A DNA stretch of 64,000 nucleotides from Acrocarpospora macrocephala (lineage in GTDB: Bacteria > Actinomycetota > Actinomycetes > Streptosporangiales > Streptosporangiaceae), in assembly GCF_009687865.1 (NCBI RefSeq), contig NZ_BLAE01000027.1, positions 42,852 to 106,851 on the forward strand, read 5' to 3'. Positions 53,366 through 64,000 of this stretch are shown in pieces. A program made the translations under genes and the position numbers. Numbering within the stretch: the stretch's first letter is position 1; each line of letters begins with the position of its first letter. The notes under the pieces are model-generated. The model was not told where the DNA came from, ran no database searches, and saw only the letters and a program-made list of their open reading frames with translations.

Positions 53366-53392
53366 GAATGAATGCATACGGTGGAGAGAAAC

Positions 53393-55414
53393 GTGCGACT
53401 GGAGGGGAGCGCCTTGGTCGAGCTGCTGGCTCGACCGGCCAGTGTCGCCGTGGTGGGCGCGTCAGCCGACCCTCAGCGGTTGTCCGGCCGGCCGCTGGAC
53501 TACCTCAAGCGGCTCGGGTACGCCGGACGGCTCTACGCCGTCAACGCGCGGGCCGACCTCCCCGATGTCACCACGGTGCGGACCCTGCTCGATCTCGAGC
53601 CTGGCTCGGTCGACGTCGCCCTGGTGGCCCTGCCCGCGCCGGGAGTGGTCGCCGCGCTGCGGCAGGCCGAGGAGATCGGAGTCCGGGCCGCGGTCGTCAT
53701 CGCCAGCGGCTTCGAGGACCGCGACGGGCCGGCTCGCCGGGACCTGGACCGCCTGGCCGCCTCGAGCAAGCTGCGGATCATCGGCCCCAACTGCGTCGGG
53801 ACCGTGGGGGTCGCCGCGTCGTCGTACCTGACCTTTTCCAGCGTGCTGCTGCAGGACCTGCCGCGGCCGGGCAGGATCGGACTGGTCACCCAGAGCGGCG
53901 CCCTCGGTAACAGCCTCCTGCAGAGCCTGATCCGGCGGCACGTGGGTTTGAACCAGTGGTTCAGCACGGGCGACGAGACCGGCACCGGCGCCATCGAGCT
54001 CGCCACCGGGCTGCTGGAGCTCCAGGACGTGGACGCTGTCGGAATGTTCCTGGAGGGCGTGACAGACCGGCACTGGCTCGGCCCGCTCGAGTCCGCGCTC
54101 CGCTCGACGGGCAAACCGCTGTTCGTGCTCAAGGCGGCCCACAGCGAGAGCGGGCGCATGGCGGCGGCCGGGCACACCGGTCGCGTCGTCGGATCGGCGG
54201 ACGCGTCGGAGGCCATCCTCGCGCACGCGGGCGTCCGGCAGGTCGCCAGCCTCGCGGAGCTGGCCGACGCGCTCGTGGTGGCCGGGGTGAACCCCGGACT
54301 GCCGCGTGCGGAGCGCCCGTCGGTGTCCCTGGTGTCGGTTTCTGGCGCCGCCGGTGTGATTGGCGCCGACCTGGTGGCTCAGGACCGTCGGCTGCGCATG
54401 GCCGAGGTCACCGGCGAGAACCTTCCGCTGGACGGGCGGTTGCACCCCCAGAACCCGCTCGACGTGCCGTTCATCAACGAGACCGGGGTCTTCACCGACG
54501 CCGTCACGACGATGAGCACCAGCCGGTCGGTGGACATCGTGGTCGGCGTGGAATCCTCGCTCGCGCACGACCGCGAGGAACTCGTCGCGAAGGTGGTCGC
54601 CGCCCCACCCGCCGCGCCGGTCGTCCTGACCTCGCTGTCCGAGGACGACACCATGCCCGCGCACCTGACCGAAGCGCTCCGCGGCGCGGGCATCGCCTAC
54701 CTGCCGACGGTCGACCGGGCGGTACGCGCGATCGCGCTGTGCGCCGCCGAGAACACCGAGCCGGACACCGTCCATCCGAGTTCATCAGACCTTCGCGGGA
54801 TCGAGTGGGTGGCCGGCCGTCTTCCCGACGACCTGCCCTGGGTTCGCTGGCGGATGCTCGCCGATGAACCGGCGGTGCCTCCCTACGTCGTCAAGGCCGC
54901 GGGCCGGACGATCCTGCACCGTACGGAGCTGGGAGCCGTGCGCATCGTGCGGACCGCCGAGGAGGCCGCCGAGGCGGTCGACGCGGTCCGGGCGGTGTGC
55001 CGCCAGTACGACGACGCCGTGATGGTGCAGGACATCGCGCCGGACGGCTTCGAAGTCATGGTCTCCGTGGCCGACGATCCGGAGTTCGGGCCGGTGGCCT
55101 TCGTCCGTCCCGGCGGGACCCTGGCCGAGCTGATGTCCGGCCAGGCGGTGATCTGGAGCGGCTGGCCGGAGCGGCGCCGGCTCGAGGTGTTGCGCGGCTC
55201 CCGGATCGGCGAGCTGCTGGTGTCGTACCGCGGCGGAAAGCGCTACGACGTCGAGGAACTGTCCCGCGTCGTGTCCCAGGCGCTCGCCGCGGTCGCGGGT
55301 GACCTGGAGTTCCTCGAGCTCAACCCGGTCATCGTGCACGAGACCGGGGTCAGTCTCGTGGACGCGGCCGGCCGGCCTCGCCCCAACAGCCCAGAAGGAG
55401 CGGCATCAGCATGA
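53393..55414 (+). CDS. NDP-forming-type acyl-CoA ligase (fused CoA-binding and ATP-grasp domains)
   Basis: A 673-residue enzyme of the acetate-CoA ligase (ADP-forming)/Pat-like family. A CoA-binding Rossmann domain (about 8-125, ASVAVVGASADPQRLSGRPL), two succinyl-CoA-ligase-like domains with GLVTQSGALGNSLLQSLIRR and the phospho-His candidate in MAAAGHTGRVVG, and a C-terminal ATP-grasp (about 470-665, VPPYVVKAAGRTILHRTELG). GTG 53393 is preferred because GGAGAG lies 5 bp upstream; ATG 53372 is also possible but has no ribosome site. It converts an acyl-CoA to acid plus ATP or the reverse. ATGA overlap with the MaoC-type gene. Confidence 0.88.
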   Translation: MRLEGSALVELLARPASVAVVGASADPQRLSGRPLDYLKRLGYAGRLYAVNARADLPDVTTVRTLLDLEPGSVDVALVALPAPGVVAALRQAEEIGVRAAVVIASGFEDRDGPARRDLDRLAASSKLRIIGPNCVGTVGVAASSYLTFSSVLLQDLPRPGRIGLVTQSGALGNSLLQSLIRRHVGLNQWFSTGDETGTGAIELATGLLELQDVDAVGMFLEGVTDRHWLGPLESALRSTGKPLFVLKAAHSESGRMAAAGHTGRVVGSADASEAILAHAGVRQVASLAELADALVVAGVNPGLPRAERPSVSLVSVSGAAGVIGADLVAQDRRLRMAEVTGENLPLDGRLHPQNPLDVPFINETGVFTDAVTTMSTSRSVDIVVGVESSLAHDREELVAKVVAAPPAAPVVLTSLSEDDTMPAHLTEALRGAGIAYLPTVDRAVRAIALCAAENTEPDTVHPSSSDLRGIEWVAGRLPDDLPWVRWRMLADEPAVPPYVVKAAGRTILHRTELGAVRIVRTAEEAAEAVDAVRAVCRQYDDAVMVQDIAPDGFEVMVSVADDPEFGPVAFVRPGGTLAELMSGQAVIWSGWPERRRLEVLRGSRIGELLVSYRGGKRYDVEELSRVVSQALAAVAGDLEFLELNPVIVHETGVSLVDAAGRPRPNSPEGAASA

Positions 55415-56566: not shown

Positions 56567-57616
56567 ATGAAGGCGCTGCGCGTGACCCGGGGCGAGGCGG
56601 GCGCCCGCCTTGTCGATGTTCCCGTCCCCGTGCCGCGGGACGACGAGGTCCTCATCCAGGTCACCGCGGCCGGACTCTGCGGCACCGACGTGCAGGCCGC
56701 GTTCCGCCCCGAGGCACGGCTGATCACCAGGCCGGAGCTGACCCTGGGACACGAGCCCGCCGGCCGGATCGTCGCCCTGGGCGGGGCGGTGCGCGGCTGG
56801 GCCACCGGTGACCGGGTGGCCGTCTCCTCGATCGTCATCTGCGGGCGCTGCCACCTGTGCTCCCAGGGGATGAGCGAGATCTGCGCGCGCGGCTCGATCA
56901 TCGGCCTGAACCACGACGGCGCGGTCGCCGAATACATGACCGCTCCGGCCGTCAACCTGGTCCGCCTGCCCGACGCCGTGACCGATGAGGTGGGCGCCAT
57001 CCTGACCGACGCGATACCGACGCCGTTCCACGCGCTGTACCAGCGCGGGCGGCTGCAGCCCGGGGAGACCGTCGCCGTCTTCGGCGTCGGCGGGCTCGGC
57101 CAGCACGCCGTGCAACTGGCGAAGGCGTTCGGCGCGGCTCGGATCATCGCCGTCGACATCAGGGCGGAGCAGCTCGAGCACGCCCGGTCGCTGGGGGCCG
57201 ACCATGCCTTCCGCGCCGACGACGAGCAGCTCGGCGACCGGATCCGGGAGGCCAACGGTGGCCGCGGCGTGGATCTGGCGGGCGTCTTCGTCGGCTCGTC
57301 GGCGGCGATCGCCGCGGCGTTCCGCTCGGTGGGCAAGGGGGGCCGCATGGTCGTCGTCGGGCTCACCGACGACGACCTCGTCCTGCCGCCCTCGGCGGCC
57401 TTGGCCCGCCGGGAGATTTCGATCATCGGCTCGGGCGGATTCCGGCTCGACACGATCGAGCAGCTGGTGGCGCTGGTGGCGGCCGGTCGGCTGGACTTCT
57501 CCCGCTCTGTCTCGCACGTGCTGGGGCTCGACGAGGCGGAATCGGCCCTCGACCTGCTCCGGGGCCACGACGGCTCGGTCCGGCGGGTGGTCGTGGCGCC
57601 GAAGGGGGAGGATTAG
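56567..57616 (+). CDS. zinc-dependent medium-chain alcohol dehydrogenase
   Basis: A 349-residue MDR-family dehydrogenase. Catalytic zinc ligands Cys38 (CGTD), His62-Glu63 (GHEPAG); structural zinc Cys92, Cys95, Cys98 and Cys106 (CGRCHLCSQGMSEIC); NAD(P)-binding FGVGGLGQHAVQLAKAFG with VDIRAEQLEHARSLGADH, the acidic residue suggesting NAD+. Oxidises a hydroxyl made by hydration or oxygenation in this pathway (inference). Follows the MaoC-like gene by 25 bp with GGAAGGACG upstream. Confidence 0.92.
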   Translation: MKALRVTRGEAGARLVDVPVPVPRDDEVLIQVTAAGLCGTDVQAAFRPEARLITRPELTLGHEPAGRIVALGGAVRGWATGDRVAVSSIVICGRCHLCSQGMSEICARGSIIGLNHDGAVAEYMTAPAVNLVRLPDAVTDEVGAILTDAIPTPFHALYQRGRLQPGETVAVFGVGGLGQHAVQLAKAFGAARIIAVDIRAEQLEHARSLGADHAFRADDEQLGDRIREANGGRGVDLAGVFVGSSAAIAAAFRSVGKGGRMVVVGLTDDDLVLPPSAALARREISIIGSGGFRLDTIEQLVALVAAGRLDFSRSVSHVLGLDEAESALDLLRGHDGSVRRVVVAPKGED

Positions 57617-57620
57617 GGCC

Positions 57621-58685
57621 ATGATGACTGGTACGACCGCCGGCGCGATCAAGGCGGGCATCGAGAGGTTCCAGCTCGCCGACCGCCCGGACGTGGCCGT
57701 GCTGTACCCCGATGTGTGCTTCGCCTCGATCGAGGCGGTCGGCGAGGTGACGATCTCCCTGCTGGTCGACTCCGTGCTGACCGGCTGGCATCCCGAGTCG
57801 CAACTGGCGCCCTTTCCAGTCGCGTCGCTGGTGGTGTCGCGGGACTCCGCCGCACAGTTTCACCCGGAGCTGAGCAACCGCGACCCGGTTGAGATCCAGG
57901 TGTGGGCGGACGGCCGGGTCACGGTCGAGGTCGAGTTCCAGGGTTCCGACGTGGAGACGGCCGGCGAGCAGTGGCGGTCCACCGCGCGCGACGTGCTCGC
58001 GGAGTGGGCCCGGGAATCCGGCGCCGAGCTGGTGTCGGTCTTCAACGACCGGTCCCGGTCCCTGCCCGATGTGTGGAACGCCACGTTCGCCGTACCCACC
58101 GAGGATCGGACCGTCCGCGACCTCGTCGACCTGGGGACCCGCGCGCTGCGCACGGCCGAGCTGTCGATGACCGGGTGGGGTGCGGAACAGGACGTCCGGC
58201 GGCTGCTCGCCGACGGTGACGCCCACGCGGTGCTCGGCTGGCCGCCCTCCGCCGTCCTCGAACTGCGGGCGGCCCTGCCCGAGGGCGCTGGCGAGCTCGA
58301 CTTCGCGGCCGACGTGTGCGCCTTCGCCAACGGGGTCCGAGGCGGGACGATCATCGTGGGCGTCGCCCGCGAGCCGGGCGACCAGCGGGCCCGGCTGATT
58401 CCCGTCGACGGCGACGAGGGACCGGCCCTCCTCCGTCGCATCATCGAGGAGCGGGTCTTCCCGGTCCCGGAGCGGCTGTTCGTGCACCAGGTCGGCAACA
58501 TCCTGGTCGTCCGCGTCCCGCCGCAGGACCGGCTGGTCAGTCCATTCCTGCTCCGCGTCGCGGTGCCCGGCCTGGAGGCCTTCGCGGTCGTCGAACGGTA
58601 CGGCGTCGAGACCAGGGCGCGGAGCGCGGCGGCGCTGCACACCGCTCTCGCGGTCGGCACCGCGGCGCTGCTGCCGAGAGATTAG
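57621..58685 (+). CDS. AlbA_2 (Schlafen-like)-domain protein of unknown function
   Basis: A 354-residue soluble protein. The N-terminal about 200 residues are unfamiliar (ADRPDVAVLYPDVCFASIEA; VEIQVWADGRVTVEVEFQGS). The C-terminal half resembles the AlbA_2/Schlafen fold: VLELRAALPEGAGELDFAAD, CAFANGVRGGTIIVGVARE, then LLRRIIEERVFPVPERLFVH. Such modules bind nucleic acid or act as nucleases, yet the gene sits 4 bp after the zinc dehydrogenase in a catabolic operon. Its role there is unknown. It overlaps the convergent regulator by 4 bp. Confidence 0.65.
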   Translation: MMTGTTAGAIKAGIERFQLADRPDVAVLYPDVCFASIEAVGEVTISLLVDSVLTGWHPESQLAPFPVASLVVSRDSAAQFHPELSNRDPVEIQVWADGRVTVEVEFQGSDVETAGEQWRSTARDVLAEWARESGAELVSVFNDRSRSLPDVWNATFAVPTEDRTVRDLVDLGTRALRTAELSMTGWGAEQDVRRLLADGDAHAVLGWPPSAVLELRAALPEGAGELDFAADVCAFANGVRGGTIIVGVAREPGDQRARLIPVDGDEGPALLRRIIEERVFPVPERLFVHQVGNILVVRVPPQDRLVSPFLLRVAVPGLEAFAVVERYGVETRARSAAALHTALAVGTAALLPRD

Positions 58686-59287
58686 AACGTCGGTGGCGTG
58701 ATCACCCAGATCGCGACGAGGTCCTCGTCACCGACGCTCTCCCAGGAGTGCGGGCGGGTGCTGGGGAAGTAGATCGCGTCCCGGGGGTTGAGCACCCACT
58801 CGTTGCTGCCGACGGCGAACTTCATGGCGCCGGAGATGACGACACCGCATTCCTCGCCCTCGTGGACGTGCGGGTGCCCGCCGCTGCCCTGCCCCGGCGC
58901 CGCCTCGACCCAGATGATCTCCATGCTCTTCTGGAGGTTGGGCGAGAGCAGTTCGTTGGCGATCTGCGTTCCGGGATACACGATGCGTCGTCGCTCCCCG
59001 GCCCGGAGCACCGCGACCTCGTCGTCGGCGGTGGTGTGCTGCTGGCCGGCCGTTTTGGGGACGGCGTTCTCCAGCAGTTCTCCCACGCTGAAGCCGAGCG
59101 CGCTGACCAGGGACTTGAGACTGGACAGGGTGGGGTTGGCGACACCGCGTTCGACCTGGCTGACGAAGCTGGTGGAGACCCCGGCCCGTTCGGCGAGCTG
59201 GGACAGGCTCATCCGCTGCGCCTGACGCCGCTCCCTGATGAGGCCGCCGAGCGCGACGGCGTCAAGGCCGTCGTCTCCCTGTTTCAT
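58682..59287 (-). CDS. XRE-family regulator with C-terminal cupin domain
   Basis: A 201-residue HTH-cupin regulator like PuuR. The helix-turn-helix spans about 12-68 (IRERRQAQRMSLSQLAERAG, STSFVSQVERGVANPTLSSL). The cupin covers about 125-195 (GHPHVHEGEECGVVISGAMK and YFPSTRPHSWESVGDEDL) with His/Glu residues able to hold metal or effector. Start ATG 59287. It is the only regulator encoded in the catabolic region and is upstream of, and co-oriented with nothing but, the ferredoxin pair's far end, so it is a candidate for one of the repeated operators near 60811-60933. Confidence 0.9.
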   Translation of the reverse strand: MKQGDDGLDAVALGGLIRERRQAQRMSLSQLAERAGVSTSFVSQVERGVANPTLSSLKSLVSALGFSVGELLENAVPKTAGQQHTTADDEVAVLRAGERRRIVYPGTQIANELLSPNLQKSMEIIWVEAAPGQGSGGHPHVHEGEECGVVISGAMKFAVGSNEWVLNPRDAIYFPSTRPHSWESVGDEDLVAIWVITPPTF

Positions 59288-59366
59288 GGCGGCGACGCTA
59301 TCGTATGGGCGGCCATTCGAACGCCGCGTCACCGAGCGCGCAGGGGGTGTGCGACGACTGGCCATC

Positions 59367-60596
59367 TCAGGCTCCGTACGCGATCGGGCCTGGCGCCGAT
59401 GGCAGCAGGCGTCCGGCAAGGTGGGCGGCCAGCTGGCTCATCGGCTGGCCGGTGGCGAGGGAGCGACGACCGCGCACGGCGACCTGCGGCCAGTTGACCG
59501 TGAGCACGCCGCACAGCTCGTCATCCCGCGCCCAGAGGACCGCGAATCGGTCCCCGTCTTTCACGAGCTGGTGGTGAGAGCCGGTCCACGGAGTTCCGGC
59601 GATCTGGATCTTCCAGTCGTACTGGTTGCTCCAGACGTAGTCGAGCGAGAGGTGTTCGCGGGGGGATTCCGGATTCAGGATGTTGTGGGCCACGACTCCC
59701 GCCTGCTCTACCGCGCTGGTCCAGTGTTCTGACCGCAGGAGAAGCTTACGCGCGGGATGCCACCAACGCGCCGCGTCGCCTACCGCGTAGACGTTTGTCG
59801 CGTTCTGGACCCGGCCACCGGCGTCGCAGACGACGCCGGAATCGACGGCCAGTCCGGAGCCGGCCAGCCACTCGGTGTTGAGTTCGGTGCCGAGACCGGT
59901 AACGGCCACGTCGGCGGCGATCGTGCTGCCGTCGCCGAGGCGCGCGTGGAGCCGGCCGCCGCGCTCCGCGAGCTCATCGATCGTGGTCCCGAAGTGGGTG
60001 TCGACCCCGTGGCGCCGGTGCAGATCGACGAACAGCGAACCGATCTCGGCGCCGAAGTGCCGCGCCATCGGCACCTCGGCGATGTCGACCAGGTGCACCT
60101 CGATCCCCAGACCTCGGGCGGCGGAGGCGACCTCGGCTCCGATGAATCCGGCCCCGACCACCAGGACCGAGCGGGCACGCCGGAGAGCGGTCCGCAGGTT
60201 CATCGCGTCCTCCCAGCAACGCACGTCCAGAACCCCGGGCAGGCCCTGCCATGGCGAGGTTCTCGCCCGCGCGCCGGTGGCCACCACGAGTGCCTCCCGG
60301 TAGCCGAGCGAGCTCCCGTCGGAGAGAGCGACCTCGCGGCCGGTGACGTCGAGGCCGGTCGCCGCGACACCGAGGGTGAGCTCCAGCCGGAGGTTCTTCG
60401 CCTCCTCGGCCGTCAGCAGCGACGGGAAGACCGGTTCGTCCGCCAGCAGCACATCCTTGGACAGTGGTGGCCGGTCGTACGGGAGGTGCCGTTCGCGGTC
60501 CACGATCGTGATGCCCCCGGCGTACCCGCTGGCGCGCAGCCGCTGGGCGGTGCGGACGCCGGCGACGGAGCCGCCGACGATCAGGACGCCGGTCAC
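59367..60596 (-). CDS. NAD(P)H-dependent ferredoxin reductase (FAD)
   Basis: A 409-residue flavoprotein of the rhodocoxin/putidaredoxin-reductase type. FAD motif VLIVGGSVAGVRTAQRLRAS, LPYDRPPLSKDVL, NAD(P) motif SVLVVGAGFIGAEVASAARG and the second FAD motif NVYAVGDAARWWHP. Start GTG 60596 overlaps the ferredoxin stop (GTGA). Passes electrons from NAD(P)H to the ferredoxin and so to the Rieske oxygenase and/or P450. Confidence 0.93.
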   Translation of the reverse strand: MTGVLIVGGSVAGVRTAQRLRASGYAGGITIVDRERHLPYDRPPLSKDVLLADEPVFPSLLTAEEAKNLRLELTLGVAATGLDVTGREVALSDGSSLGYREALVVATGARARTSPWQGLPGVLDVRCWEDAMNLRTALRRARSVLVVGAGFIGAEVASAARGLGIEVHLVDIAEVPMARHFGAEIGSLFVDLHRRHGVDTHFGTTIDELAERGGRLHARLGDGSTIAADVAVTGLGTELNTEWLAGSGLAVDSGVVCDAGGRVQNATNVYAVGDAARWWHPARKLLLRSEHWTSAVEQAGVVAHNILNPESPREHLSLDYVWSNQYDWKIQIAGTPWTGSHHQLVKDGDRFAVLWARDDELCGVLTVNWPQVAVRGRRSLATGQPMSQLAAHLAGRLLPSAPGPIAYGA

Positions 60597-60971: not shown

Positions 60972-62171
60972 GTGACCACCGAGACCCAGTCACCGAACCG
61001 CCGTTCTCCCCGGCAGCGCCACTCCAAGGCGGTCGACGTGGCGCGACGCGGCCTCTCCCTGGTGATGAACCACTCGAACGAGCAGGCCGACGCGGTCTAC
61101 GAGCAGCCCGCGAGCCGGTACCTCGACCTGGACCGGTTCGAACGGGAGAAGCGGGTGCTGTTCCGCGAGCGGCCGGTCTTCGCCGGGCTCAGCGTGGAGC
61201 TGCCGACCCCAGGGTCGTACAAGACCCTCGACCTGCCCGGCTGCCCCCTGGTCATCGCCCGCCAGGCGGATGGCTCGCTGCGCGCCTTCGTCAACGCCTG
61301 CCTGCACCGCGGCGCCAACGTCGCCTACGACGCCGGGTCGGCGCGGACCTTCGTCTGCAAGTTCCACGGCTGGGCCTACAACCTGGACGGCACGCTGCGC
61401 AAAGTACGCGGCGGGGACAACTTCGGGCAGCTCGACCCCGGGTGCACCGGGCTCGCGCAGGTCGCGGTGGCCGAGAAGTACGGGCTGATCTTCGTGCGCG
61501 GGACGCGCCTGGCCGAGGCCCCGGAGCCGATCGACGTCGACGAGGTGCTGTGCGGGCTCGGACCGCAGTTCGCCGAGTGGAGCCTGGAGATGGACCTGTC
61601 CGCGCCGGCCATCCACCCGCCGGTCGTCACCGCGTCGAACTGGAAGCTGGCCGTCGACGGCTATCTGGAGCCGTACCACTTCGCCTCGCTGCACAAGACG
61701 ACCGTCGCCAAGTACAACAACTCCAACCAGGCCACCGTCGACATCCACGGGCCCCACGTCATGAGCGGCTTCCTCGGCCGCAAGATCAATGAGCTCGCCG
61801 AGATCGACGAGGGCGAGTGGCCCCTGATGCGCCACGTGCAGCTCATCTACTTCCTGTTCCCCAACGTCATCCTGTCGGTCATGCAGGATCACGTGGAGTA
61901 TTCGCTGATCCTGCCCGGCCGGTCGGTCGCGGAGAACGTGATGCACCACAACTACTTCGCCTACACCGACTGGGCGAACGAGGACGTGCACCACAAGCGC
62001 TTCCACAACACGCAGTGGATCCTCACCGCCGAAGACATCCCGATGGCCGAGGAGTGCCATCGCAACATCGCCCAGGGCGCCATCGACAAGTTCTACTTCG
62101 GCCGCAACGAGCCCGCGTTGCAGCACTTCCACAAGACCATCGAGACGGAGTTGGCCGCGGCCCAGCACTGA
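60972..62171 (+). CDS. Rieske non-heme iron oxygenase, alpha subunit
   Basis: A 399-residue oxygenase component. The Rieske [2Fe-2S] ligands are Cys110/His112 (CLHRGA) and Cys129/His132 (CKFHGW). The catalytic domain has the mononuclear iron motif around Asp229, His236 and His241 (VDGYLEPYHFASLHK). No beta subunit gene is adjacent, so it is probably an alpha-only oxygenase like those acting on carnitine, betaines or aromatic acids. Start GTG 60972 with AAGGGAGCG upstream. Divergent from the ferredoxin pair that likely feeds it; followed after 34 bp by the M24 hydrolase. Confidence 0.93.
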   Translation: MTTETQSPNRRSPRQRHSKAVDVARRGLSLVMNHSNEQADAVYEQPASRYLDLDRFEREKRVLFRERPVFAGLSVELPTPGSYKTLDLPGCPLVIARQADGSLRAFVNACLHRGANVAYDAGSARTFVCKFHGWAYNLDGTLRKVRGGDNFGQLDPGCTGLAQVAVAEKYGLIFVRGTRLAEAPEPIDVDEVLCGLGPQFAEWSLEMDLSAPAIHPPVVTASNWKLAVDGYLEPYHFASLHKTTVAKYNNSNQATVDIHGPHVMSGFLGRKINELAEIDEGEWPLMRHVQLIYFLFPNVILSVMQDHVEYSLILPGRSVAENVMHHNYFAYTDWANEDVHHKRFHNTQWILTAEDIPMAEECHRNIAQGAIDKFYFGRNEPALQHFHKTIETELAAAQH

Positions 62172-62205
62172 CCGGCCCGACCACCTCCGCCCAAGGGAGA
62201 TCCAC

Positions 62206-63501
62206 GTGTCACAGCACCCCCACCCCAACCACGTCCCGGCGCCCCTGCAGTACGCGGACAAGCTGCACTTCGGGCCGACGACCAACGACACCCACGAGGG
62301 CATCGACACCAACCGGATGCGCGAGCAGCGTGCCGCCCGGATGCGGGCGATCATGCGCGCCGCGAACATCCCGGCACTGCTCGTGACGGGCGCGGAGAAC
62401 GTCCGGTACCTCTGCGGTTTCTTCTGGTCGGAGTTCCAGCTCCAGGCAGGCTACGCGCTGTTCTTCGTGGATCATCCCCCGGTGGTCTTCGCACCGGCGG
62501 GCTCCTATCACCAGATGCCGGACCAGGCCCCGTGGATCCCCGAGTGGCGGATCGCGCGTACCTGGCTGGAGGGGCCGGTGCCGGAGTCGGCCGCCGAGGC
62601 GGAAGCCAAGCTGTTCGCCGACGGGATCGCCGCGGAGCTGAACGAGCGCGGCCTCGGCCGGGAGCCGCTGGCCGTCAGCGAGTTCGGCGAGCGGGCGGTG
62701 TCCGCCCTGATTGGCATGGGCATCGAGGTACGTCCGGGGCTGCCGCTGCTCATGGAGAGCGCCCGCATCAAGACGCCCGACGAGATCAACTGCCTCAAGA
62801 TGATCGCCTCCATCAGCTCCTCCGGCTTTCATCGGGCGCTGGAGACCCTCCGGCCGGGCGTCCTGCAGAGCACGGTCGCCAAGGAGGTCAAGCGCGCCGT
62901 CGAAGACGGCGGCGCCGAGTTCGGGGCGTCGAAGGTGATGGCCGGCCCGCTGGCGTTCGAGCGCGGCATCAGCAGCAGCGACCGGCGCATCGAGTACGGC
63001 GACCTGGCCTACGTGCTCACCTGCGGCAGCTCCTACCTCGGCTACACGGCGTGCCTCTACCGGCAGTACATCGTCGGCCGCCGCCCGACCGCCGAGGAGT
63101 CCGGCTGGTACGACACGCTGCGGGACCGGCTCGACTCGGTGATCGGCGAGCTGCGGCCCGGGGCCAGCACGGCCGACGCCGCCAGGCACTTCGCGCCCGC
63201 GAGCAAGTGGGGTTACACCGACGAGGCGGAGCTGCTCACCATCGAGTTCGGGCACGGCATCGGCCTGGTGAACGCCGGGTCGCGGTTCGTGCACTACAAC
63301 CCGCCGATCATCAACCGGCAGTGGTCCTTCGAACACCCGGAGGAGATCCAGCCCGGCATGGTGATCGCGGTCGAGGGGATCGAGGGCGTGCACCGCAAGC
63401 AGGGCGTGCGTCTTGAGACGATGGTGGTGATCACCGAAAACGGCCCGGAGGCGATCGACTTCTACCCGCGTCACGAGATTCTGGCCGCCAGTGTCATCTG
63501 A
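62206..63501 (+). CDS. creatinase-like M24-fold hydrolase lacking both metal-binding aspartates
   Basis: A 431-residue pita-bread-fold protein with the creatinase N-domain (about 40-185, LLVTGAENVRYLCGF) and M24 domain (about 190-425). The usual His350 (FGHGIGLVN), Glu390 (VEGIEG) and Glu404 (RLETMVVI) are present. Where M24 metallopeptidases have two Asp ligands, this protein reads LTCGSSYLGY (Thr272/Cys273) and TACLYRQY (Ala282/Cys283). Loss of both resembles metal-independent creatinase and argues for a C-N hydrolase rather than a peptidase. Start GTG 62206 after AAGGGAG. The stop is overlapped by the next gene. Confidence 0.88.
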   Translation: MSQHPHPNHVPAPLQYADKLHFGPTTNDTHEGIDTNRMREQRAARMRAIMRAANIPALLVTGAENVRYLCGFFWSEFQLQAGYALFFVDHPPVVFAPAGSYHQMPDQAPWIPEWRIARTWLEGPVPESAAEAEAKLFADGIAAELNERGLGREPLAVSEFGERAVSALIGMGIEVRPGLPLLMESARIKTPDEINCLKMIASISSSGFHRALETLRPGVLQSTVAKEVKRAVEDGGAEFGASKVMAGPLAFERGISSSDRRIEYGDLAYVLTCGSSYLGYTACLYRQYIVGRRPTAEESGWYDTLRDRLDSVIGELRPGASTADAARHFAPASKWGYTDEAELLTIEFGHGIGLVNAGSRFVHYNPPIINRQWSFEHPEEIQPGMVIAVEGIEGVHRKQGVRLETMVVITENGPEAIDFYPRHEILAASVI

Positions 63502-64000
63502 AACGGCGGTGGCCGCTCGCGCGGGGTCGTGGTCCGAGCCGGGCGCCGAGCTGGTGGCGCCCGGGGTGCACCGGATCCCGTTGCCGCTGCCGGACGAGCT
63601 CGCGGCGGTCAACGTCTACGCGCTGGAGCGCCCTGACGGGCTGACGCTGATCGACTCGGGTCAGGCCCTCCGGCGCGCTCGTGACGACCTGAAGGACGCG
63701 CTGGCGTCTCTCGGGTACGCCCTCGGCGACGTGCGCGAGTTCCTCATCACCCACGCCCACCGCGACCACTACACCCTCGGTCCCCTGGTGCGCCGCGACC
63801 ACGGTTCGCGGGTGCGCATCGGGATCCGCGAGGCGCCGGCGCTCGCGGCGGTCGGCAATCCGGACTGGCCCGCGTACGTCTCCCAGCTGGCGCTGCTCCG
63901 GGCCAACGGCGCCGAGGCCCTCGCCGACGAGATCGGCGATGACGCCAGGGCGCAGGGAATCGCGGCCCATCAGTGGGAAGCCCCCGACTCCTGGATCGTC
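63491..64000 (+). CDS. metallo-beta-lactamase-fold hydrolase (partial, runs off window)
   Basis: 170 codons of a longer gene. GTG 63491 overlaps the M24 stop by 11 bp. The N-terminal MBL domain has VHRIPLPLPDELAAVNVYAL, LTLIDSGQAL and the zinc motif THAHRDHYTLG (HxHxDH). The remaining metal ligands and the end of the protein lie beyond the window. Probably hydrolyses a thioester, lactone or amide in the same pathway. Confidence 0.9.
   Translation, partial: MSSETAVAARAGSWSEPGAELVAPGVHRIPLPLPDELAAVNVYALERPDGLTLIDSGQALRRARDDLKDALASLGYALGDVREFLITHAHRDHYTLGPLVRRDHGSRVRIGIREAPALAAVGNPDWPAYVSQLALLRANGAEALADEIGDDARAQGIAAHQWEAPDSWIV

Follow-up and report, generated by a model that had tools for sequence, protein, structure and literature searches.

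The 64,000-nucleotide stretch of Acrocarpospora macrocephala DNA analyzed here (hereafter, the window) lies on contig C27 of a 12.1-Mb genome. Near its end, a 399-aa Rieske oxygenase alpha subunit with intact CxH/CxxH motifs is encoded on the plus strand (60972..62171; PF00355 and PF00848), and this gene stops 34 bases upstream of the one that concerns us—a 431-aa open reading frame (ORF) with a GTG start (62206..63501, plus strand), assigned to the M24B (pita-bread) proteins by Pfam, an AlphaFold model, and VIA. A likely ribosome-binding site, aagggag (62193..62199, plus strand), can be read directly six bases upstream of the GTG. A metallo-beta-lactamase (MBL)-fold hydrolase of 350 aa with an intact HxHxDH motif follows (63491..64000, plus strand; PF00753) and extends beyond the window; its ORF, called from the first GTG, overlaps the end of the M24 gene by 11 bases and a family III CoA-transferase ORF by 4 bases. 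On the minus strand are a divergently oriented FAD ferredoxin reductase (59367..60596), which is HcaD/AndAa-like at scores under the NCBIfam cutoffs and has a homologue in Sciscionella, and an XRE-cupin regulator (58682..59419), whose best NCBIfam match, PuuR, is also under its cutoff. Farther upstream, past the reductase and regulator, are an ADH, MaoC-like genes, a CoA-ligase of the Succ_CoA_lig/ATP-grasp type (53372-55414), and two AMP-binding ligases. The interval between the ADH and regulator genes holds a long plus-strand ORF (57204-58685) with a subthreshold match to Schlafen AlbA_2 (20.6 bits; cutoff 25.3).

The M24 gene is genuine, and its product is a full-length protein of the M24B fold (hereafter, the target). 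Its C-terminal domain belongs to PF00557 (79.4 bits against a Pfam cutoff of 23; 4e-22) and its N-terminal domain matches PF01321 (36.7 bits against a cutoff of 22; 7e-9), while the NCBIfam models for PepQ, DddP, and DoeA all score far under their cutoffs. The AlphaFold2 model, built on a 28-sequence alignment, has a mean pLDDT of 84.6 and a pTM of 0.84. DddP ranks first in a Foldseek search with this model (E 6.1e-27), and VIA-align superposes it on DoeA (Z 35.6, rmsd 3.0, 367 residues aligned), DddP (Z 34.8, rmsd 2.8, 393 aligned), and creatinase (Z 32.9-33.1, rmsd 3.2-3.3, 371-374 aligned). Judged from the model, the M24B fold is certain, but the fold comparison does not discriminate among DoeA, DddP, and creatinase as relatives. 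An earlier, sequence-only reading of this DNA had proposed an M24/creatinase fold and a structural comparison with these same three enzymes; Pfam, AlphaFold, Foldseek, and VIA agree on the fold, and the comparison gives Z scores of 33-36 to all three. Comparison with G001, another genome of the genus, gives a dN/dS of ~0.11 (0.0115/0.105); the ratio is ~0.13 for A. catenulata (0.021/0.163) and ~0.23 for Sciscionella (0.19/0.83), so the gene is maintained under purifying selection and is not decaying.

Metal-Ligand Positions of the Target

Which of the M24 metal ligands does the target keep? In this fold, metal site 1 is built mainly by a first Asp (Asp1), and site 2 by a second Asp (Asp2), a His, and two Glu. 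We located these positions with a profile built from 93 relatives that are about 30% identical, leaving out the target group itself; also excluded were L092 and L113 (stops in the matched range), L111 (a duplicate), and L034 and L035 (loci of the subfamily described below). The target and its A. catenulata and Sciscionella counterparts align to the profile without gaps through the first two motifs. Leu271 (63016..63018, codon ctc), at which strand 267-271 of the AlphaFold2 model terminates, occupies the Asp1 position, and Cys283 (63052..63054, tgc) occupies that of the bridging Asp2. The ligands His350 (63253..63255), Glu390 (63373..63375), and bridging Glu404 (63415..63417) are kept, with all of these codons on the plus strand. 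The published first ligand of DddP, the prolidase Asp, the DoeA Glu, and the creatinase Asn all share the Leu271 column in the profile alignment. Across the Asp1, Asp2, His, Glu, and Glu columns, prolidase and DddP both read D/D/H/E/E, creatinase N/A/H/E/H, DoeA E/P/Y/M/T, and the target L/C/H/E/E; no Asp is present anywhere in target residues 267-283 (LAYVLTCGSSYLGYTAC). At the level of aligned residues, both metal-binding Asp are shown to be lost and His, Glu, and Glu retained, with a second Cys present at 273 (63022..63024, tgc, plus strand), the position of Asp297 in DddP, an extra iron ligand.

The sequence-only reading had already held that both Asp are missing and that His350, Glu390, and Glu404 remain. 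Both statements stand: no intact Asp aligns at a ligand position, and the three retained residues are recovered in alignments to prolidases as well as to the 93-member profile. Its assignment of Asp2 to Ala282/Cys283 holds for Cys283, whereas its assignment of Asp1 to Thr272/Cys273 gives way to Leu271 in the profile alignment; the Thr272 equivalence arises from a one-residue gap in pairwise phmmer alignments to prolidases.

Upstream of these motifs, the subfamily signature Glu252-Arg253-Gly254 (62959..62967, plus strand) places Gly254 in the His column common to prolidase, creatinase, and DoeA—the catalytic His of creatinase (AHNPV) and of the M24 peptidases (HGxxS region). The target has neither the Asp, Asp, His, Glu, Glu ligand set of prolidase and aminopeptidase P nor the His of their HGxxS region, and Gly254 likewise stands where creatinase has the His of AHNPV. 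Downstream, a seven-residue insertion after HGIGL (residues 356-362; 63271..63291, plus strand), with pLDDT <50 at 357-362, is found in six of seven subfamily rows, L122 being the one without it.

A Rare Subfamily beside a Broad Asp2-to-Cys Clade

How widespread are these replacements? Loss of Asp1 is rare. Within the genus it occurs in the window and in two of four other genomes (G001, 98% identity; A. catenulata, G004, 96%), and it recurs, among the scan matches listed, in the M24 protein of Sciscionella marina (74%). Three genomes of another Actinomycetota family also carry it (G485 and G567, 53%; G472, 43%), which amounts to 3 of the 396 genomes searched besides the window's own and 3 of 16 in their family. 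A search of 394 genomes of the class recovered no genome but the window's own at E 1e-90. In the seven subfamily rows the Asp1 column holds Leu in four, Trp in two, and Asn in one, and never Asp. Cys273, Cys283, His350, Glu390, and Glu404 are invariant across the rows. Among five rows at 41-75% identity, 108 of 364 columns (30%) are invariant and all five of these residues are included, an outcome with a random-pick probability of ~0.002—a figure given purely for illustration, because the columns of an active site are no random sample. Further residues that never vary in the subfamily but are seldom seen elsewhere include E252, R253, G254, T345, E347, and E393. We rejected a sequencing oddity as the source of the Asp loss, because the same loss appears in seven rows from three families and dN/dS is low. 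In a phylogenetic tree the seven rows fall into one clade with 100/100 support, next to three other groups of the Cys clade. Creatinase, DoeA, DddP, and L122 have long branches, and the joins between main groups, including that of the target group, may be spurious; from the tree we take nothing beyond the grouping of the seven rows. Given dN/dS values of 0.11-0.23, the active site of the subfamily looks rebuilt rather than decayed, as far as aligned sequences can tell.

The replacement of Asp2 by Cys has a much wider distribution. All 93 clade members in the profile have Asp in the Asp1 column and Cys in the Asp2 column, none has Cys at the position of 273, and the ligand columns are kept at His350 (93/93), Glu390 (92, with one gap), and Glu404 (91, with two gaps). 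Because 75 of the 93 sequences are among the matches listed by a scan with peptide patterns that in part include the Cys, its invariance in those is partly by construction. Motif-free searches, comprising the other 18 and 26 further loci (L123-L148), gave Asp and Cys in 44 of 44 sequences, all picked because they resemble the target or M24. The Cys is thus a marker of a broad clade and is not special to the target. Among the matches listed, the clade spans Actinomycetota, Pseudomonadota, Rokubacteria, Chloroflexota, and archaea, with members annotated as M24 or Xaa-Pro peptidase family proteins. Relatives were also found by tblastn on 266 plasmid records; three of four examined (from Phaeobacter, Rhodococcus, and Paenarthrobacter) carry the Asp/Cys motif, and in the fourth, haloarchaeal one the pattern used did not resolve it. 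The window's genome contains a second Cys-clade M24 gene, of another subgroup (L007; G000:C19:152423-153607), with FDIIQ...YRTCYYRT and Asp1 intact.

The target has the features that mark the clade—Cys at Asp2, Tyr-Arg two residues on, and His/Glu/Glu—and scores 294 bits against its profile, sharing Cys283, Y285, R286, H350, E390, R402, and E404. Clade members, however, keep Asp1 and have no Cys at 273, whereas the target subfamily has Leu, Trp, or Asn at Asp1 together with Cys273 and E252-R253-G254. Because Leu271 departs from the clade's Asp1, we place the target in a divergent subfamily beside the clade and not as a typical member.

The wider clade has a recurrent neighborhood of its own. 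In 47 of its 77 loci (L036-L113), a gene homologous to a two-domain PPDK_N/PEP-utilizers protein (426 aa in L059) is found no farther than 4 kb from M24, and in 36 within 500 bases; a zinc ADH comes within the same 4 kb in 22 of 77.

Comparison with Known M24-Fold Enzymes

DddP is the best PDB profile and Foldseek match of the target (4rzy and 4b28; NF043017), and the two share a spacing of 12 between the Asp-ligand positions as well as the His and both Glu ligands. In the excerpted text of the DddP study (PMC4108388), two irons are bound through D295, D297, D307, H371, E406, and E421, columns that correspond to L271, C273, C283, H350, E390, and E404 of the target (chain offset 50). Three of these six invariant ligands are therefore replaced, D295/D297/D307 giving way to Leu271/Cys273/Cys283. 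The candidate bases named in that excerpt, D377 and Y366, become Asn356 and Thr345 when counted from the ligand His. The target scores 41.6 bits against NF043017, where the cutoff is 600.

Creatinase (1chm) resembles the target in fold, in having both Asp ligands replaced, and in keeping the His and the first Glu. It differs in having a His at the Glu404 column, Phe at 273, Ala at 283, and its catalytic His at Gly254, and it scores 58 bits against the clade profile versus 294 for the target. The ectoine hydrolase DoeA/EutD (6twj and 6twk) also shares the fold (Z 35.6) and the replacement of both Asp ligands, with Glu at Asp1 and Pro at Asp2, but its residues in the His350, Glu390, and Glu404 columns are Tyr, Met, and Thr. 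The DoeA models give the target 33.8 bits (NF038259; cutoff 575) and 19.9 bits (TIGR02993; cutoff 613). We reject an ordinary DddP, creatinase, or DoeA identity, since the NCBIfam cutoffs are missed (for DddP and DoeA) and key residues are replaced.

The Rieske Partner and Its Distribution

Is the Rieske oxygenase a constant companion of the M24 gene? The two genes adjoin in four genomes (the window, G001, A. catenulata, and Sciscionella), and the order Rieske-M24-MBL is kept in both Acrocarpospora and Sciscionella. The latter has homologues of the reductase (49%), Rieske (69%), M24 (74%), and MBL (58%) proteins and of one AMP ligase (61%). It also has a 238-aa minus-strand ORF that matches stretch 59-586 of L029 (39%), a stretch that overlaps a 4HBT thioesterase ORF. 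The contigs that carry the three distant members of the subfamily are 7.2, 5.1, and 4.3 kb long, and a search at E 1e-4 found nothing homologous to the Rieske, reductase, or MBL protein on them. The M24 gene of two of these members adjoins an Amidohydro_2 gene (L150 and L151, on contigs of G567 and G472), followed in L150 by carboxylase-domain (PYC_OADA) and biotin-domain genes; the third is neighbored by NMT1-type and ABC transport genes. In the wider clade, none of 77 loci has a Rieske or MBL homologue (E 1e-10) within 4 kb of M24, in a count that used a set of six query proteins and in which 42 loci are flanked by at least 3 kb on either side. The partnership with a Rieske oxygenase that the sequence-only reading described thus holds as adjacency in four genomes and not as a general trait. 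Because no Rieske homologue was found near the distant members or in the wider clade, different members may act on different substrates, or the Rieske link may be incidental.

In the iron-site motif of the Rieske protein, EPYHFASLH, a Glu stands three residues ahead of the first His, where naphthalene dioxygenase aligns an Asp. Carnitine monooxygenase CntA has a Glu there too (E205), which bridges two metal centers and has an adjacent Cys pair according to the excerpted text of PMC10952381; the window protein resembles CntA in the Glu but is without the adjacent Cys pair. Its best NCBIfam match is glycine betaine monooxygenase GbcA (103.5 bits; cutoff 670), but among solved structures naphthalene dioxygenase (E 7e-24) ranks ahead of CntA (4e-21), so a quaternary-ammonium substrate is only one possibility. 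The auxin iad locus also has a Rieske system, and the main text of its description (PMC12633357) does not use the terms M24 or peptidase.

Discussion

What might such an active site do? The explanation that we favor, tentatively and at somewhat less than an even chance, is that the target is a functional, probably non-peptidase M24B enzyme whose rebuilt, mononuclear, thiolate-ligated site would act downstream of the Rieske oxygenase. Because Asp1 is lost but Cys, His, Glu, and Glu are kept, site 1 is predicted to be abolished and a single, thiolate-ligated site 2 to survive. This site would persist as a mononuclear center of Cys283, His350, Glu390, and Glu404, perhaps joined by Cys273, which may take the role of Asp297 in DddP; by analogy with relatives, the Cys, His, Glu, and Glu side chains would converge in space. 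The center could activate water or polarize a carbonyl, and the M24 enzyme might in this way break a bond of the compound that the adjoining Rieske oxygenase produces, with the MBL-fold hydrolase, CoA-transferase, and acyl-CoA ligases completing the catabolism of a small carboxylate. A rebuilt site is suggested by an Asp1 column that varies freely among Leu, Trp, and Asn while C273, C283, H350, E390, and E404 are invariant, and the tight gene order Rieske-M24-MBL-CoA-transferase, largely common to Sciscionella, lends further support. The more specific proposal of a two-thiolate mononuclear center (Cys273 and Cys283 with His350, Glu390, and Glu404) devoted to a new bond cleavage downstream of the Rieske monooxygenase is doubtful. 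The chemistry of the target probably differs from that of the relatives studied so far.

Creatinase and DoeA are not known to need a metal and also lack both Asp, having Asn and Ala or Glu and Pro in their place, which counts against a metal site. A metal-free hydrolase of their kind, in which Cys283 or Cys273 might serve as nucleophile or acid/base and the Glu and Arg residues bind substrate, is almost as likely as the thiolate-metal reading. It fits the fold matches to creatinase, DoeA, and DddP (Z 33-36), and the charged residues specific to the subfamily (E252, R253, E347, and E393) point to a polar site that has been remodeled; retention of the His and first Glu is no proof of metal, because creatinase keeps both columns. 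Against it, the His common to creatinase, prolidase, and DoeA has been replaced by Gly254, the target keeps His350, Glu390, and Glu404, unlike DoeA, and Glu404, unlike creatinase, and a bridging-position Cys could plausibly be a ligand in its own right. The sequence-only reading had argued from the Asp loss to metal independence, with creatinase as precedent, and had proposed an oxidised N-containing substrate; the nitrogen is conjecture. Metal independence is possible on these sequences but does not follow from the loss, because the second-site set of Cys283, His350, Glu390, and Glu404 survives, with Cys273 at the place of the extra DddP iron ligand; and creatinase is an imperfect precedent, given that its catalytic His aligns with Gly254 and its Glu404 column holds His.

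Two invariant Cys only 10 residues apart in the former metal-site region could instead form a redox-active or structural disulfide, making the target a redox-sensitive or noncatalytic partner (a pseudoenzyme) of the Rieske system, and non-peptidase M24 proteins do exist (excerpted text of PMC3888471). We regard this as improbable, and less likely than either the metal-site or the metal-free reading: H350, E390, and E404 are invariant, dN/dS is low, and all 93 clade members have Cys283 but none has Cys273, so Cys283 has a role there in the absence of Cys273. An ordinary dinuclear M24 peptidase, whose missing Asps would be an alignment artifact, agrees with the PF00557 score above cutoff and the significant similarity to prolidases. 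It is very hard to reconcile, however, with a gap-free profile alignment, a 267-283 segment without Asp, and six other rows that lack these Asp as well, and we consider it highly improbable.

In the open-licence PubMed Central literature, we found no study of the Asp2-to-Cys clade or the Asp1-less subfamily and no two-thiolate M24 site among the matches listed. The M24 fold is a textbook scaffold for peptidases with two metals, a lyase with two irons, and hydrolases regarded as metal-free; a broad clade with Asp2 changed to Cys, together with a rare branch that has also lost Asp1 and carries a second Cys, offers a natural series on how a metal site is changed or lost. It is also a warning that many genes annotated as Xaa-Pro peptidases or M24 metallopeptidases may not encode peptidases.
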